From Cylicocyclus nassatus (taxonomy: Eukaryota > Nematoda > Chromadorea > Rhabditida > Strongylidae), in assembly GCA_958299035.1 (NCBI GenBank), contig CATQJL010000223.1:68628371-68692370 (forward strand): 64,000 bases of DNA, read 5' to 3'. Positions within the stretch are counted from its first letter, which is position 1; each line of letters opens with the position of its first letter. Below, one piece after another: positions 1-7,004 of this stretch. The notes beneath the pieces are model-generated. The model was not told the DNA's origin. It ran no database searches and saw only the letters and a program-made list of their open reading frames with translations. The position numbers and the translations under genes were made by a program.

Positions 1-363
1 TTTGTATCTTAATTCTACTCTAATGAACGAAGGCTATTGATTGCTTTTGCACTGTAAATGTAGAGTGAACCTAGCTCTACAATATGCAGTTTTAAAAGTC
101 CACAAGAGCTCCAAAGGCAAAAGAGCTGTAAATATTTGAATAGGGGGTACGTTTCCTTCGGCTTGTCTTCACGATTGTAGTATTGTTTGCTTCAAGAAGT
201 ATATCTCGAGAATGTACAATGGAAACGGTGTGATTTTCATGAATAATATTGGCAACTAGACGAAGAACTCAGGCAAAAGGCAAAATTTGGCTGAAAAGCG
301 AGGAGTACTAACAAAGTTACTACGTTGAAAAGTTAGGCTTAAGGACTTTTGGGACACCCTGTA
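1..363. repeat. Truncated repeat with CAGGGTGTCCC-type terminus
   Basis: The right edge reads TTTTGGGACACCCTG followed by TATA, matching the termini of the elements at 5821-6500, 6874-11210 and 45429-46103. The rest does not resemble the interior of those copies, so this is either a diverged subfamily or a different element sharing the end. No gene is visible here. The left end lies outside the window. Confidence 0.5.
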
Positions 364-1264
364 TATTAGGTTGTCCTAAAAGTTCTTGCGCCGGATTTTC
401 AAAAAATCATAACTTCCTTTCTTCCCAACGATTTTTCTCAAAATTATTTTTTTATGAAAGAGGAAACCTTTTTCTTCATAGCGGTGCCTTTGTCATGAAT
501 TAACGATGGTAAATTCGAGTGTTAAAAGCAATTGAAGGAAATTAGTCGAGATCGACATTTTTCGAGCTGGATCACGAAAAATTCTGGAAGTATTTTTATT
601 TGATAGAGAAAATTTTGCACATTACAGTGGTGCCTTTTCCATGGGTTAAAACGAAGTAGATCGAGAGAGAAGCAAATAAAGAGAATTTCTTCACTTTTGC
701 AATTTTTGAGCACGCTCAAAAAAGCTTGAAAACGTCACAGAAACGGCGAAAAAGTCATAAACATGGGTTTTGTGACCTTCCCTTTCTATCTGAGCGAAAG
801 TCGTGCCAATCGGGAGCAATTTTTATTTTCGTGATTTATTCGGATTTTCGGGTCTGCATTTTTCGTTTTTGATGTTTTCAAGCTTTTTTGAGCGTGCTCA
901 AAAATTGCAAAAGTGAAGAAATTCTTCCATGTGCTCTCTTCTTTAAACCTGGGCATTTCGTATTGTTTGTTAGTGATATTGTGCCGAACAGGTTTTTATG
1001 GTGGACCTTTATTGCCTGACGTTTCGATAAATATCGTCTTCTTCGGAGGCCTGAAAGGGATTGCAGTTTTGTCTCTGTCTGTCTACACGACCAAACGCCT
1101 CCTCAAGCTCGCGCGCGCTGACCTTGTCTAGAATCAACGTGCTGGGATCAATCCGAAGTAACAGTCACCAACCTTCGATCCACCGCTAAGTCAGTCAGCC
1201 CGCACGACTGTGACGGACATCACTGAGGATTGCCCAGTGTGCCAAAGATATATATAGTCTGCGG

Positions 1265-3402
1265 CTATAGTCGACATAATGATACGAATGGCAGAAGGTC
1301 ACTTGTCATCGTCAAGCACTCATTTTTATTGTTCATCCCCGGATTTCCGGCGGATATCCACGCTGCTTCCAAGGTCTTTCGTGCCGAGATCTCGGTCTCG
1401 TATGCTAGTATCGTGCATTTTACATTGAAATCGTCACCTTTATGTGCCTCGGCTCTATGTTTTCCCAACGGCGATGACATTGTCCCTCGCTTTTTGCTGG
1501 CCAAATGTTCTTTGACTCTAATGCTTAGTTTTCTTCCTATCTCCCCTACATACGTGGCTCCGCAGCGTAAGCGTTCTAGTTGGTAAACAGTACCTTCCTT
1601 TGCATAGTCGCCTAAACTTCCATATGGGCAAACGATGCAGTTGTCCGTTAAGCATTCTGTGTCATACAACCTATTTCTGATCAACCGCTTTTTTAGTGCT
1701 AGGAATGTTGACCAGCATTACCTCATCGTCTAACTGCGCTCGTGTTATGCATCGTTTGATTGCCTTGCTAAATTTATCGGACACAAAAGGCATGCAGAGG
1801 GGGATTCTGTTGTCGTTGCTTCGCAAAGGTTTATCTACGCACCGCGAAGATCTTTGTCGTAATCGCGTAACTAGGTGTCCATTGCTGCGAGCAATTTCGA
1901 ATGCTAGTTGCTGTGACTCCAATCGTTCGCTCCCGCCCGTACAGACATCTACAGCGGTTTTGTACATATTGCGGATGACAGAATGCTTCAGAGCTGTAGG
2001 GTGTGCTGGCGTGGCGTGGACAAGGATGTTTTTAGAGCTTTCTTTTCTGTACCATTTAATTCTAACAGCACCATCAGACAGGCATATCTGTGTATTCAGA
2101 AAAGAAAGCCAGCCACTATTCGGGGTTTCTCGTGTAAATTCTATGTACTGCGACTGCTGATTTAAAATTCTAAAACACTCATCCATTTCGGATTGTGTTG
2201 AGGTGACAATGAAGCAGTCATCGATGTAGCGGCAGTACATTGACGGCAAGCGTGCTAATACTGGCTCCTCGATTTTACTCATAAAACAAATCGTTAGGAC
2301 AGGCGCGAGCCTTTGGCCCATCGCAAGTCCTCTAATCTGGGAATAGTAATTCCCAGACCACCTAAAGATGTTACAGCTCAAACATTCTTTAACGAGGGTC
2401 ATTATGCACGCTTTGCTCAGCCCAAAGGTAACCATGGTGGAATGGTATTTGTCTAACATTTCCGAAATGGCTTGCAGAGCGGCATTGTTATGAACATTAG
2501 TGTAAAGTGATGTTACGTCGAATGACTCGACAGCACTACTAGGTTCAAAACTCATGCATCGCAGCTGCTTGACAAATTGTTGAGTGTTAGACAAATGTGC
2601 TGGTACCTTTACCAATAGTTGGCTCAGAGTTTTATTGAGGAACCACGATATTGATCTGTGGGACCGCCTACGCAGCTTATTCGGACGGATTTTATATGAC
2701 TCAGGTGACATCGACTGGAATTGCTGGCCTGCTACTTTAAGCGTCGTGATCATGTGGTAAAAAACCGGGCAGTTTGGATTATCTAGCTTCAGTCTGCTAA
2801 TCAACTTCTGATCGAGTCCTACAAATCTTCTAACTTTAATCCAAACTTCATTTAACTTTCTACACTGCGCCAGATATTCTCGTTTTGTAGCAGGTTGATA
2901 AAGCGTGGTATCGGAAAGATGCAATTGCGCATTTTTCGATCCAACGATTGTGGCATTATCACAAATTCCCCGCCTTTGTCACTTAAGGAGACTCGGATCG
3001 TTCCTTCGCGTACTAATTCACGCACCTCTCTAAAACCTTGCCACTGTCCTTGCGTTAGTTTAGTCTGATGTATACGCTCACATTGGCTCAAAACTTGCAA
3101 GATTTCGGTGGAAAGGATGCGGAATTTCGTATCTATCATAGGCACAGGCTCGGGTTCTTTATAGAATGATCGAGGGAATAGTAACATTGACAATGTCATA
3201 CTATCCGTTGGCAAGACTTTCTGAGCACTACTTTCTTTTTTAGCCTCGATCCTCAACGAATCTCGCAAACGATGTAAACTACCCATTATGCGGCACATAA
3301 AGGGACTTACGTTCTGCGATGGTGAAAACGATGGACCGAGGTTTGAAAACTCAACGGCTTGTGTGGATAAATGAACATCTCCGATGACGGTGACTCTTGC
3401 AA
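1265..3402 (-). pseudogene. Penelope-like retroelement ORF, minus copy (RT + GIY-YIG endonuclease), frameshifted
   Basis: Three overlapping minus-strand frames make one broken protein: 3402-2852 (N-terminal part), 2924-1671 (417 aa, reverse transcriptase) and 1684-1265 (139 aa, endonuclease). RT landmarks in the middle frame are FDVTSLYTN (about residue 135, palm motif A), GLAMGQRLAP (about 200, motif B) and YIDD (about 235, catalytic motif C). A downstream KWYRK block followed by a HSVIRNMYKTA stretch is typical of Penelope-like elements. The last frame has a cysteine cluster (CLTDNCIVCP), then the GIY-YIG nuclease core around CGATYVGEIGRKLSIRVKEH and a distal catalytic glutamate region near TLEAAWI. 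A one-base loss near 2925, relative to the plus copy, causes the first frame break; another break lies near 1680. Known role of the family: target-primed retrotransposition. This copy cannot make an intact protein. Confidence 0.88.
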
Positions 3403-4914
3403 GAAGAAAGCACATGGAAGCTACTTACCAATATACCGCCAAAGCTGTTCTTTCTGGTGTGCGAAGCACTATCGCTTCGTCAAAAGGTCGTTGCGGTTCG
3501 TCAATCTCTTGTCTTCCTCCGACGGTGCAAGAAGTCCAATGTTCTACCAACGTTCATTTCAAAGAAGAAAATAGGAAGTACCTGTTGTCTACGTGAAGAT
3601 GATATGCGAGTTATCAAGATCTATCATTCAATGTTGAATTTAGCTATCAAAGAAAAACAACGGGTTCTGTATTCCACATTGTTGAAGTGTTCGTGTAAAG
3701 AATCGAGTTGTAAACGTCTTCTGCCTGAAGATGTATGGAGGAGGATTGAGAGCGGGTCGAAGTCCATTTGCACCTCTATACGATTAAGGCTAAATCGAGG
3801 CTCTGCAAGAAGTTCGACCGACTCTCGGAGTCACTGCGTGGGAAACTTGATGATGATAAGACGATCCTTCCTCAGAACCACCGTTTCACTGATTTTTCCT
3901 CACAGAGTGGTACTGATGTTGCAAGAGTCACCGTCATCGGAGATGTTCATTTATCCACACAAGCCGTTGAGTTTTTAAACCTCGGTCCATCGTTTTCACC
4001 ATCGCAGGACGTAAGTCCCTTTATGTGCCGCAAAATAATGGGTAGTTTACATCGTTTGCGAGATTCGTTGAGGATCAAGGCTAGAAAAGAAAGTAGTGCT
4101 CAGAAAGTCTTGCCAACGGATAGTATGACATTGTCAATGTTACCATTCCCTCGATCATTCTATAAAGAACCCGAGCCTGTGCCTATGATAGATACGAAAT
4201 TCCGCATCCTTTCCACCGAAATCTTGCAAGTTTTGAGCCAATATGAGCGTATACATCAGACTAAACTAACGCAAGGACAGTGGCAAGGTTTTAGAGAGGT
4301 GCGTGAATTAGTACGCGAAGGAACGATCCGAGTCTCCTTAAGTGACAAAGGCGGGGAATTTGTGATAATGCCACAATCGTTGGATCGAAAAATTGCGCAA
4401 TTGCATCTTTCCGATACCACGCTTTATCAACCTGCTACAAAACGAGAATATCTGGCGCAGTGTAGAAAGTTAAATGAAGTTTGGATTAGTGTTGGAAGAT
4501 CTGTAGGACTCGATCAGAAGTTGATTAGCAGACTGAAGCTAGATAATCCAAACTGCCCGGTTTTTTACCACATGATCACGACGCTTAAAGTAGCAGGCCA
4601 GCAATTCCAGTCGATGTCACCTGAGTCATATAAAATCCGTCCGAATAAGCTGCGTAGGCGGTCCCACAGATTGAATATCGTGGTTTCTCAATAAAATTCT
4701 GAGCCAACTATTGGTAAAGGTACCAGCACATTTGTCCAACACTCAACAATTTGTCAAGCAGCTGCGATGCATGAGTTTTGAACCTAGTAGTGCTGTCGAG
4801 CCATTCGACGTAACAGCGTGGATATCCGCCGGAAATCCGGGGATGAACAATAAAAATGAGTGCTTGACGATGACAAGTGACCTTCTGCCATTCGTATCAT
4901 TATGTCGACTATAG
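3403..4914 (+). pseudogene. Penelope-like retroelement ORF, plus copy, internally deleted
   Basis: This is a head-to-head partner of the minus copy. It begins further upstream and so supplies an N-terminal region (frame from 3397) missing from the other copy, then shifts frame near 3770 into a 308-aa frame (3768-4694). A second shift and stop near 4694 lead to the frame 4711-4914. That last frame joins the start of RT motif A (EPFDVT) directly to the endonuclease C-terminus (AWISAGNPG). The missing piece corresponds to about 1366-2512 of the minus copy, roughly 1.15 kb, removing the RT catalytic core and most of the nuclease. The junction near 4812-4815 has a 2-base CA microhomology. GCACATGGAAG occurs at 3410-3420 and 5245-5255, a possible target duplication around this copy. 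Confidence 0.85.
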
Positions 4915-5820
4915 CCGCAGACTATATATATCTTTGGCACACTGGGCAATCCTCAGTGATGTCCGTCACAGTCGTGCGGGCTGACTGACTTAGCGGTGGA
5001 TCGAAGGTTGGTGACTGTTACTTCGGATTGATCCCAGCACGTTGATTCTAGACAAGGTCAGCGCGCGCGAGCTTGAGGAGGCGTTTGGTCGTGTAGACAG
5101 ACAGAGACAAAACTGCAATCCCTTTCAGGCCTCCGAAGAAGACGATATTTGTCGAAACGTCAGGCAATAAAGGTCCACCATAAAAACCTGTTCGGCACAA
5201 TATCACTAACAAACAATACGAAATGCCCAGGTTTAAAGAAGAGAGCACATGGAAGAATTTCTTCACTTTTGCAATTTTTGAGCACGCTCAAAAAAGCTTG
5301 AAAACGTCAAAAACGAAAAATGCAGACCCGAAAATCCGAATAAATCACGAAAATGAAAATTGCTCCCGATTGGCACGACTTTCGCCCAGATAGAAAGGGA
5401 AGGTCACAAAACCCATGTTTATGACTTTTTCGCCGTTTCTGTGACGTTTTCAAGCTTTTTTGAGCGTGCTCAAAAATTGCAAAAGTGAAGAAATTCTCTT
5501 TATTTGCTTCTCTCTCGATCTACTTCGTTTTAACCCATGGAAAAGGCACCACTGTAATGTGCAAAATTTTCTCTATCAAATAAAAATACTTCCAGAATTT
5601 TTCGTGATCCAGCTCGAAAAATGTCGATCTCGACTAATTTCCTTCAATTGCTTTTAACACTCGAATTTACCATCGTTAATTCATGACAAAGGCACCGCTA
5701 TGAAGAAAAAGGTTTCCTCTTTCATAAAAAAATAATTTTGAGAAAAATCGTTGGGAAGAAAGGAAGTTATGATTTTTTGAAAATCCAAGAACGCAAGAAT
5801 TCTTAGGACAGCCTAATATA

Positions 5821-6500
5821 CAGCGTGTCCCAAAAAAAATGTATCGAACGTTCGATCGAACGAATATCTCTCTCCTAAAGAAGTCTTTTTTCTAGCTTCA
5901 GATACCAATCTGTAGAGCTAGCTTCAACTCAGATTTGCATTATAGAACGAATCACTCATTTCTCTTCATTACTGTAGGATTACGGTAGAAACTTCAAAGA
6001 CGGTTTTAAGCAATAAAAAGCCATATTTTGCCTCAGAAAAGAAACAAAACAGCCTGAAAGCTTCTACACTAGGCTAATTAGAGTTGCTGATTATAACTGT
6101 AAAGTCTCCTATTATGATGCTTCATTGAAGAGTTATGCCAGGTAAGAGGTAGCGGCCATTTTTGCAATGTTCCTAAAAAGTGCGATTACACCGTTTAGAA
6201 AACTTCGTAACCCTGTGAACAGTTGAGTATTGAACTCGGCGTCCATAAAAATCCTATTACACAAGTTTTCACAATTATTTGAAAAATTTTGAAACGGCAG
6301 CTTTTTTCCACATTGACACCACGTGTTTCAAGTTTCTACCGTAATCCTACAGTAATGAAGAGAAATGAGTGATTCGTTCTATAATGCAAATCTAAGTTGA
6401 AGCCAGCTCTACAAAACGGTCCCTGAAGCAAGGTAAAAGACTTCTTGGGAAGAGAGATATTAACGATCAAACGTTCGAAATATTTTTTTGGGACACCCTG
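5821..6500. mobile_element. Miniature element, CAGGGTGTCCC family (copy A1)
   Basis: Inverted termini CAGCGTGTCCCAAAAA and TTTTTTGGGACACCCTG are flanked by TA (5819-5820, 6501-6502). The element is a foldback: the segment with CATTACTGTAGGATTACGG occurs in both orientations (about 5968 and 6340). No transposase is present. The TA duplication and terminal length suggest a Tc1/mariner-related non-autonomous family. Other copies are at 6874-11210 and 45429-46103. Confidence 0.8.
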
Positions 6501-6504
6501 TATA

Positions 6505-6867
6505 TTAGGTTGGTCCGAAAGTTCTGTCCCACCATTTTCAAAAAAACATAACTTCTTCCTAACACAACATTTTCGCATGATTAAAAGAGTATTCGAAAGA
6601 GCAATTCATGCGCTGTCCAAATCTACCTTGGCTGCTATCTACTAAGCTCTGACTGCAGAGATAAAATTGGGAAAAGGAAATAACTTCAAGTTCAAAATTT
6701 TTAAGCAAGCCAGTTAAAAAATCCAAAATCATGCCATAAAATCCAAAACAGCTAGTAGTTTAGGTTCTTTGATCCCCTCTTTCTATTCAAGCAAAATTCG
6801 GAAATTGTGTTAGGAAGAAGTTATGTTTTTTTGAAAATGGTGGGACAGAACTTTCGGACCAACCTAA
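6505..6867. mobile_element. Mariner-type miniature element (copy B1, internally deleted)
   Basis: Ends TTAGGTTGGTCCGAAAGTTC and its inverted copy GAACTTTCGGACCAACCTAA, with TA on each side. The left arm continues GTCCCACCATTTTCAAAAAA and the right arm mirrors it. It matches the full-length 44297-45018 element but lacks much of the middle. It abuts A1 and A2 with only a shared TATA between them. Confidence 0.82.
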
Positions 6868-7004
6868 TATATACAGGGTGTCCCAAAAAAATGTATCGAA
6901 CGTTTGATTGTTAATATCTCTCTTCTAAAGAAGTTTTTTCCCTTGCTTCAGGCACCAATCTGTACAGCTGGCTTCAATTTAACTTTGTACTATAGAACGA
7001 ATCA

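Follow-up and report, generated by a model that had tools for sequence, protein, structure and literature searches.

What kind of unit lies at positions 366–5816 of a 64,000-nucleotide stretch of contig CATQJL010000223.1 from the nematode Cylicocyclus nassatus (the window), where inverted ends of the Tc1/mariner type enclose two head-to-head copies of a Penelope-like element (PLE)? The first-pass annotation proposed a composite in which a mariner-type transposase supplied in trans carries retroelement coding DNA or, alternatively, the entry of a retroelement into the loop of a foldback, followed by its mirroring in a palindrome-forming event. We favor, with a probability of roughly 0.62, a nested insertion of a PLE pair into a miniature inverted-repeat transposable element (MITE), scarred by a repair event that copied the left side in inverted orientation; the locus would then be a one-off, and no new kind of mobile element. 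The locus is known here from assembled sequence alone (one assembly). The genome searched comprised 514.7 Mb in 369 contigs, and counts from similarity searches are lower bounds, those from pattern searches excepted.

The outer element

The interval begins with TTAGGTTGTCCTAA at position 366, and its right end at 5816 is an imperfect inverse of the left end, reading TTAGGCTGTCCTAA inward. A TA dinucleotide borders it on the left (364–365, the MITE target dinucleotide) and on the right (5817–5818), each flank reading TATA, in agreement with the TA-flanked inverted ends described initially. Inverted repeats fill the interval: positions 393–1365 match 4814–5786 (973 nt), and inner inverted blocks lie within 2511–3402 and 3919–4815 (97–99% identity). 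The extent of these repeats is far above chance.

The outer sequence corresponds to a ~970-bp foldback MITE with Tc1/mariner-type ends. A search with positions 366–1365 gave at least 158 matches (the best 40 of 2432 candidates were scored), and query positions 1–499 followed by 469–1 reversed form a recurring ~970-bp foldback on several contigs. A 50-nt pattern from the MITE end had 318 genome matches at up to 3 mismatches, compared with 0 for the reversed control. Matches that reach the tip are directly preceded by TA, and the tips of other copies are nearly invariant. In 15 full copies excised from the genome, the arms within a single copy differ at 5–69 of ~469 positions, and the ~30-bp loop is held in one orientation.

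The same ends bound a 3.1-kb element (L061, C223:68143950–68147150) with a broken Tc1-like transposase, whose gene is fragmented across several frames and which shows a DDE_3 match above the cut-off (E = 1.3e-8) and an HTH_Tnp_Tc3_2 match below it (E = 0.0016). The TA targets, the inverted ends and the L061 transposase between the same ends assign the outer element to the MITEs of the Tc1/mariner superfamily, and L061 is possibly related to the mobility source of the family. The family resembles known foldback MITEs of this superfamily in its near-full-length palindrome with inverted ends, its TA targets, its many dispersed copies and its related element with a broken transposase between the same ends; the window copy differs in being split by a PLE pair and in having one altered end. 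Elsewhere, locus L062 (C326:33900950–33908500) holds three near-complete copies of the window MITE and related tip fragments within 7.5 kb.

Could a Tc1/mariner transposase acting in trans mobilise the MITE ends together with the PLE pair between them? Two transposon ends with TA flanks do enclose unrelated coding DNA, as in a composite transposon. The L061 transposase copy with the same ends makes such movement not impossible, and PF01359, the mariner transposase family, has 104 matches in the genome. A composite would be expected at more than one site, and a 28-nt MITE/PLE junction pattern, allowing up to 3 mismatches, matched only twice in the whole genome, at the window's own two sides. 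Among the matches listed for the 1000-base arm (the search with 366–1365 described above; best 40 of 2432 candidates), no other spans the junction. By the junction pattern, the unit was not found at a second site. The right tip is also altered, and nesting plus repair accounts for the mirrored private deletion and loop described below. Beyond the presence of the ends and of related transposases the composite reading is not supported, and we regard it as highly improbable.

The PLE pair in the window

The left MITE part (366–924, plus strand, by comparison with genome copies) consists of arm and loop (MITE positions 1–499), a private ~90-bp deletion, and ~56 bp of the opposite arm. It meets the PLE near 924/925, a border placed with an uncertainty of 1 base. 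The left PLE arm (925–3402, minus strand) is 5'-truncated, lacking ~500 nt, and begins at its outer end with a ~35-nt tail (925–959, minus strand) that matches the start of the PLE reading frame. An open frame at 1671–2978 (minus strand) contains an RVT_1 reverse transcriptase domain (Pfam, E = 6e-9), with YIDD in its translation. A GIY-YIG match at 1331–1594 (minus strand; residues 42–129 of the frame 1265–1717) lies in a different frame and is sub-threshold (E = 4e-4, 21 bits against the Pfam cut-off of 22.6).

The right PLE arm (3401–4813, plus strand) extends to the PLE 5' region and lacks the equivalent of ~1366–2510. YIDD falls within this missing stretch, as does almost the whole GIY-YIG match, so the right copy lacks YIDD and all but a small part of the GIY-YIG match. 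The head-to-head arrangement described by the first-pass annotation stands, with both motifs present in the left copy only. Both copies are broken, with their pieces in differing frames.

Each outer end of the pair has a tail, and the two junctions have no more than 6 bp of sequence in common. No hammerhead ribozyme was among the five Rfam matches (E ≤ 10) in window positions 1–7000, where the PLE copy is broken. Two of the Rfam matches were to MIR821, on the minus strand at 653–949 and 5215–5535 and sub-threshold (60.8 and 66.5 bits against a gathering score of 249); they are probably chance matches to the palindrome, because the MITE folds back.

The mirrored tract

The outer tracts 393–1365 and 4814–5786 differ by 4 mismatches in 973 (99.6% identity). 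The right-hand tract (minus strand) runs from the PLE 3' end and tail into the MITE loop and arm, and it repeats in mirrored order both the loop and the private 90-bp deletion, which is absent from 15 other aligned MITE copies. A long target duplication inside the palindrome was rejected as the source of this flank, because it would leave loop and deletion pointing the same way left and right, and both are mirrored.

The inner PLE arms differ more, at 15 of 890 sites in a trimmed alignment (Fisher p = 0.009 against 4/973; an earlier inner count of 16/897 had given p = 0.006, now superseded). The inner count depends on the borders chosen, and wider ones give 18 mismatches in 899 aligned columns. 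Polarity was assigned against outgroup copies, with two sites ambiguous: the inner arms share 8 derived changes, and have 9 and 4 private ones. Counted against loci L009 and L010 alone (identical at these sites), the shared differences number 12, of which 4 are changes in L009/L010. The 8 common derived changes show that both inner arms come from one source, and they disfavor two independent PLE insertions from different sources.

An assembly artefact, in which a foldback read or collapsed palindrome made the mirror, is equally hard to credit as the composite, for the arms differ at scattered sites, at their tips and by a 1.1-kb deletion. Beyond 366–5816, moreover, the inverted match runs for just ~19 bp, into a neighboring MITE tip (among the 25 longest of 35 pairs).

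The inner end of the mirrored tract falls at 1365/4814, where the missing stretch of the right arm starts, and CA is common to both sides of this join, giving a right-arm breakpoint at 4811–4815 with 2-bp microhomology. Its outer end falls at 393/5786. Over the outermost 27–30 bp, 5 substitutions and 3 inserted bases set the right tip (5787–5816, minus strand) apart from the left one; the right tip is aberrant compared with other MITE tips and has no other genome match at up to 3 mismatches.

We propose the following sequence of events. A ~970-bp foldback MITE with Tc1/mariner-type ends would have inserted at a TA, and a GIY-YIG-type PLE would then have entered it in head-to-head form, as two reverse transcripts whose 3' ends faced outward and whose 5' ends were joined. 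A later break or gap would have removed the right end of the pair together with its MITE flank. The leftover right MITE tip could then pair with the inverted left MITE arm and be extended on the left template from 393 to 1365, through the MITE arm, the loop, the PLE tail and the PLE 3' region, before end joining at the 2-bp microhomology linked this new end to the broken right PLE arm. The left side probably served as donor, because it has a tip of the usual kind and a PLE arm free of such a gap. The nesting, the common source of the PLE arms, the mirror copy, the microhomology and the single copy number are read from the sequence itself; we infer in which order the events took place, and that synthesis-dependent repair and end joining were involved. 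The alternative given by the first-pass annotation, of a retroelement in a foldback that was then mirrored, fits well in this form, with one amendment: most of the PLE inversion would have been present from the moment the pair inserted, leaving the outer 973 bp alone to be mirrored later. With both PLE arms broken, the unit as a whole probably does nothing.

Ordinary gene conversion between the inverted arms could instead have homogenised the outer 973 bp, the 1.1-kb right-arm deletion being a separate event that bounds the tract. Long inverted repeats readily undergo conversion, and the tract is indeed bounded by a heterology on each side, the tip at one end and the deletion at the other. This explanation needs two events whose borders coincide within 1–2 bp at 1365/4814, where the repair model needs one, and we consider it unlikely.

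Several points weigh against nesting followed by repair. The right tip at 5787–5816 is more divergent than a simple leftover tip should be. The lower divergence of the outer tract depends on 4 versus 15 differences; reverse-transcription error could account for some of the inner divergence, in which case the mirroring may date back to the insertion itself. Furthermore, the two tails and the missing junction repeat prove nothing by themselves, since 8 of 20 other PLE pairs lack a junction repeat and one, at L048, has two tails.

PLE pairs elsewhere in the genome

PLE candidates are numerous: with a query from the 3' region the best 40 of 929 were scored, and with one from the reverse transcriptase stretch the best 40 of 1346. 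We fetched 39 other PLE loci (among L001–L020 and L041–L060, L014 and L060 being one locus) from the best matches, the first eight of which were picked for an inverted look. Such selection can inflate the share of pairs; it should not produce the one-tail pattern described below. Intact 896-codon frames, with RVT_1 and a C-terminal GIY-YIG both above cut-off in the same frame, were found in L009 and L010. The window left copy shares the RVT_1 match with them, its GIY-YIG match being below cut-off and in another frame. A sequence search found no relative with a solved structure for the PLE reverse transcriptase.

Inverted pairs with outward 3' ends make up 25 of the 39 loci, in a set partly chosen as inverted-looking, so that such a pair is no peculiarity of the window. 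Tandem arrays occur at three loci (L009, L010, L016), and 11 copies were treated as single, including three also with short inverted pieces (L045, L049, L054). Both outer ends could be scored in 20 pairs, located at other sites, away from the window MITE/PLE junction; the remaining loci had a missing or cut end (L014/L060, L017, L019, L052, L053), or were the three arrays and the 11 singles. In 12/20 pairs the two junctions have a sequence of 8 bp or more in common (9–14 bp where found), compared with 9/420 mismatched junction controls; the other 8/20 pairs lack it. Such a sequence is expected as a target duplication.

A ~35-nt tail, whose sequence is the start of the reading frame, occurs at exactly one end in 19/20 pairs, with two tails in L048. 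The tail threshold was passed by 16 of 2000 random 120-nt windows from the fetched loci and the window. If the ends were independent at one half, the probability of at least 19/20 one-tailed pairs would be 2e-5. One tail in 19/20 pairs, as against a tail in 5/11 copies treated as single, suggests that the two PLE ends are coupled at integration. A tentative explanation, which we put at somewhat less than even, is that the pair is built asymmetrically: each target strand would prime its own transcript, with necessarily different RNA start sites, leaving exactly one tail, and the two-tailed pair in the window would be an exception made by mirroring.

Two reports on known systems allow comparison. 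In Adineta PLEs, head-to-head is described as the most frequently seen inverted form, with 8–10-bp target duplications and a 31-bp tail optionally at one inverted pseudo-LTR (PMC3846280). For an Anolis PLE, two reverse-transcription start sites that bound the tail are described, and both strands are cut; the strands are said to show no apparent difference in start site in vitro, for this one PLE (PMC11167929). The present family resembles the GIY-YIG PLEs of the Penelope/Poseidon type (Adineta vaga Pen families, Anolis PAc) in having reverse transcriptase then GIY-YIG in one frame (intact L009, L010). It also has 5'-truncated copies, arranged in tandem or inverted, a short target duplication and an optional tail of ~31–40 nt that lies where the reading frame starts, as these elements do (PMC3846280, PMC11167929). 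The window copy differs from these systems in its two tails and mirrored flank, and no hammerhead match was found in window positions 1–7000. Because the family pairs and the published anatomy agree, the PLE pair in the window is ordinary as a pair.

No preference of the PLE for MITEs was evident: inverted flank matches were found at 5/39 loci (L003, L005, L008, L011, L048), in a survey with shortened flanks at L013, L014, L019, L045 and some others. At L008, the MITE around the PLE pair is a different one with mariner ends, and the pair has a 9-bp junction repeat of its own and no mirroring; at L005 the PLE lies in another inverted repeat (139 bp, 83%). The window locus resembles L008, and the other inserts in the window MITE family at L063 and L064, as a nested transposable element insertion; it differs in its mirrored flank, the flanks at L063 and L064 being in normal order.

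Mirroring might also have occurred during PLE integration, if one target end was extended on the finished left arm and not on the PLE RNA. A later break would then be unnecessary, reverse-transcription errors could account for the greater divergence of the inner arms, and PMC11167929 describes a PLE enzyme that, in vitro, cleaves the two target strands and extends each of them. The outer tract, however, diverges less than the inner arms (4/973 vs 15/890), and in the five of 20 other pairs with inverted flank matches (the loci named above) the listed matches are short or diverged, with no near-identical long mirror starting at the PLE end. We judge mirroring at integration to be quite unlikely.

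If nesting and repair is correct, a palindromic MITE may template a repair in which part of a neighboring insertion becomes mirrored, and the window locus is a warning against taking mirrored ends for a new composite transposon. The many head-to-head PLE pairs and the near-strict one-tail rule bear on how PLEs integrate, and the one-tail rule is a more interesting lead than the window locus itself.

Neighborhood of the locus

A second MITE family with TACAGGGTGTCCC-type ends and many dispersed copies adjoins the right end (5817–6505, 689 bp), and a tip of the same type adjoins the left end at 347–363. Between two tips of the second family, at 6506–6868, lies an inverted-repeat element (363 bp, related TTAGGTTGGTCC ends), so that the two kinds alternate along 347–6890.

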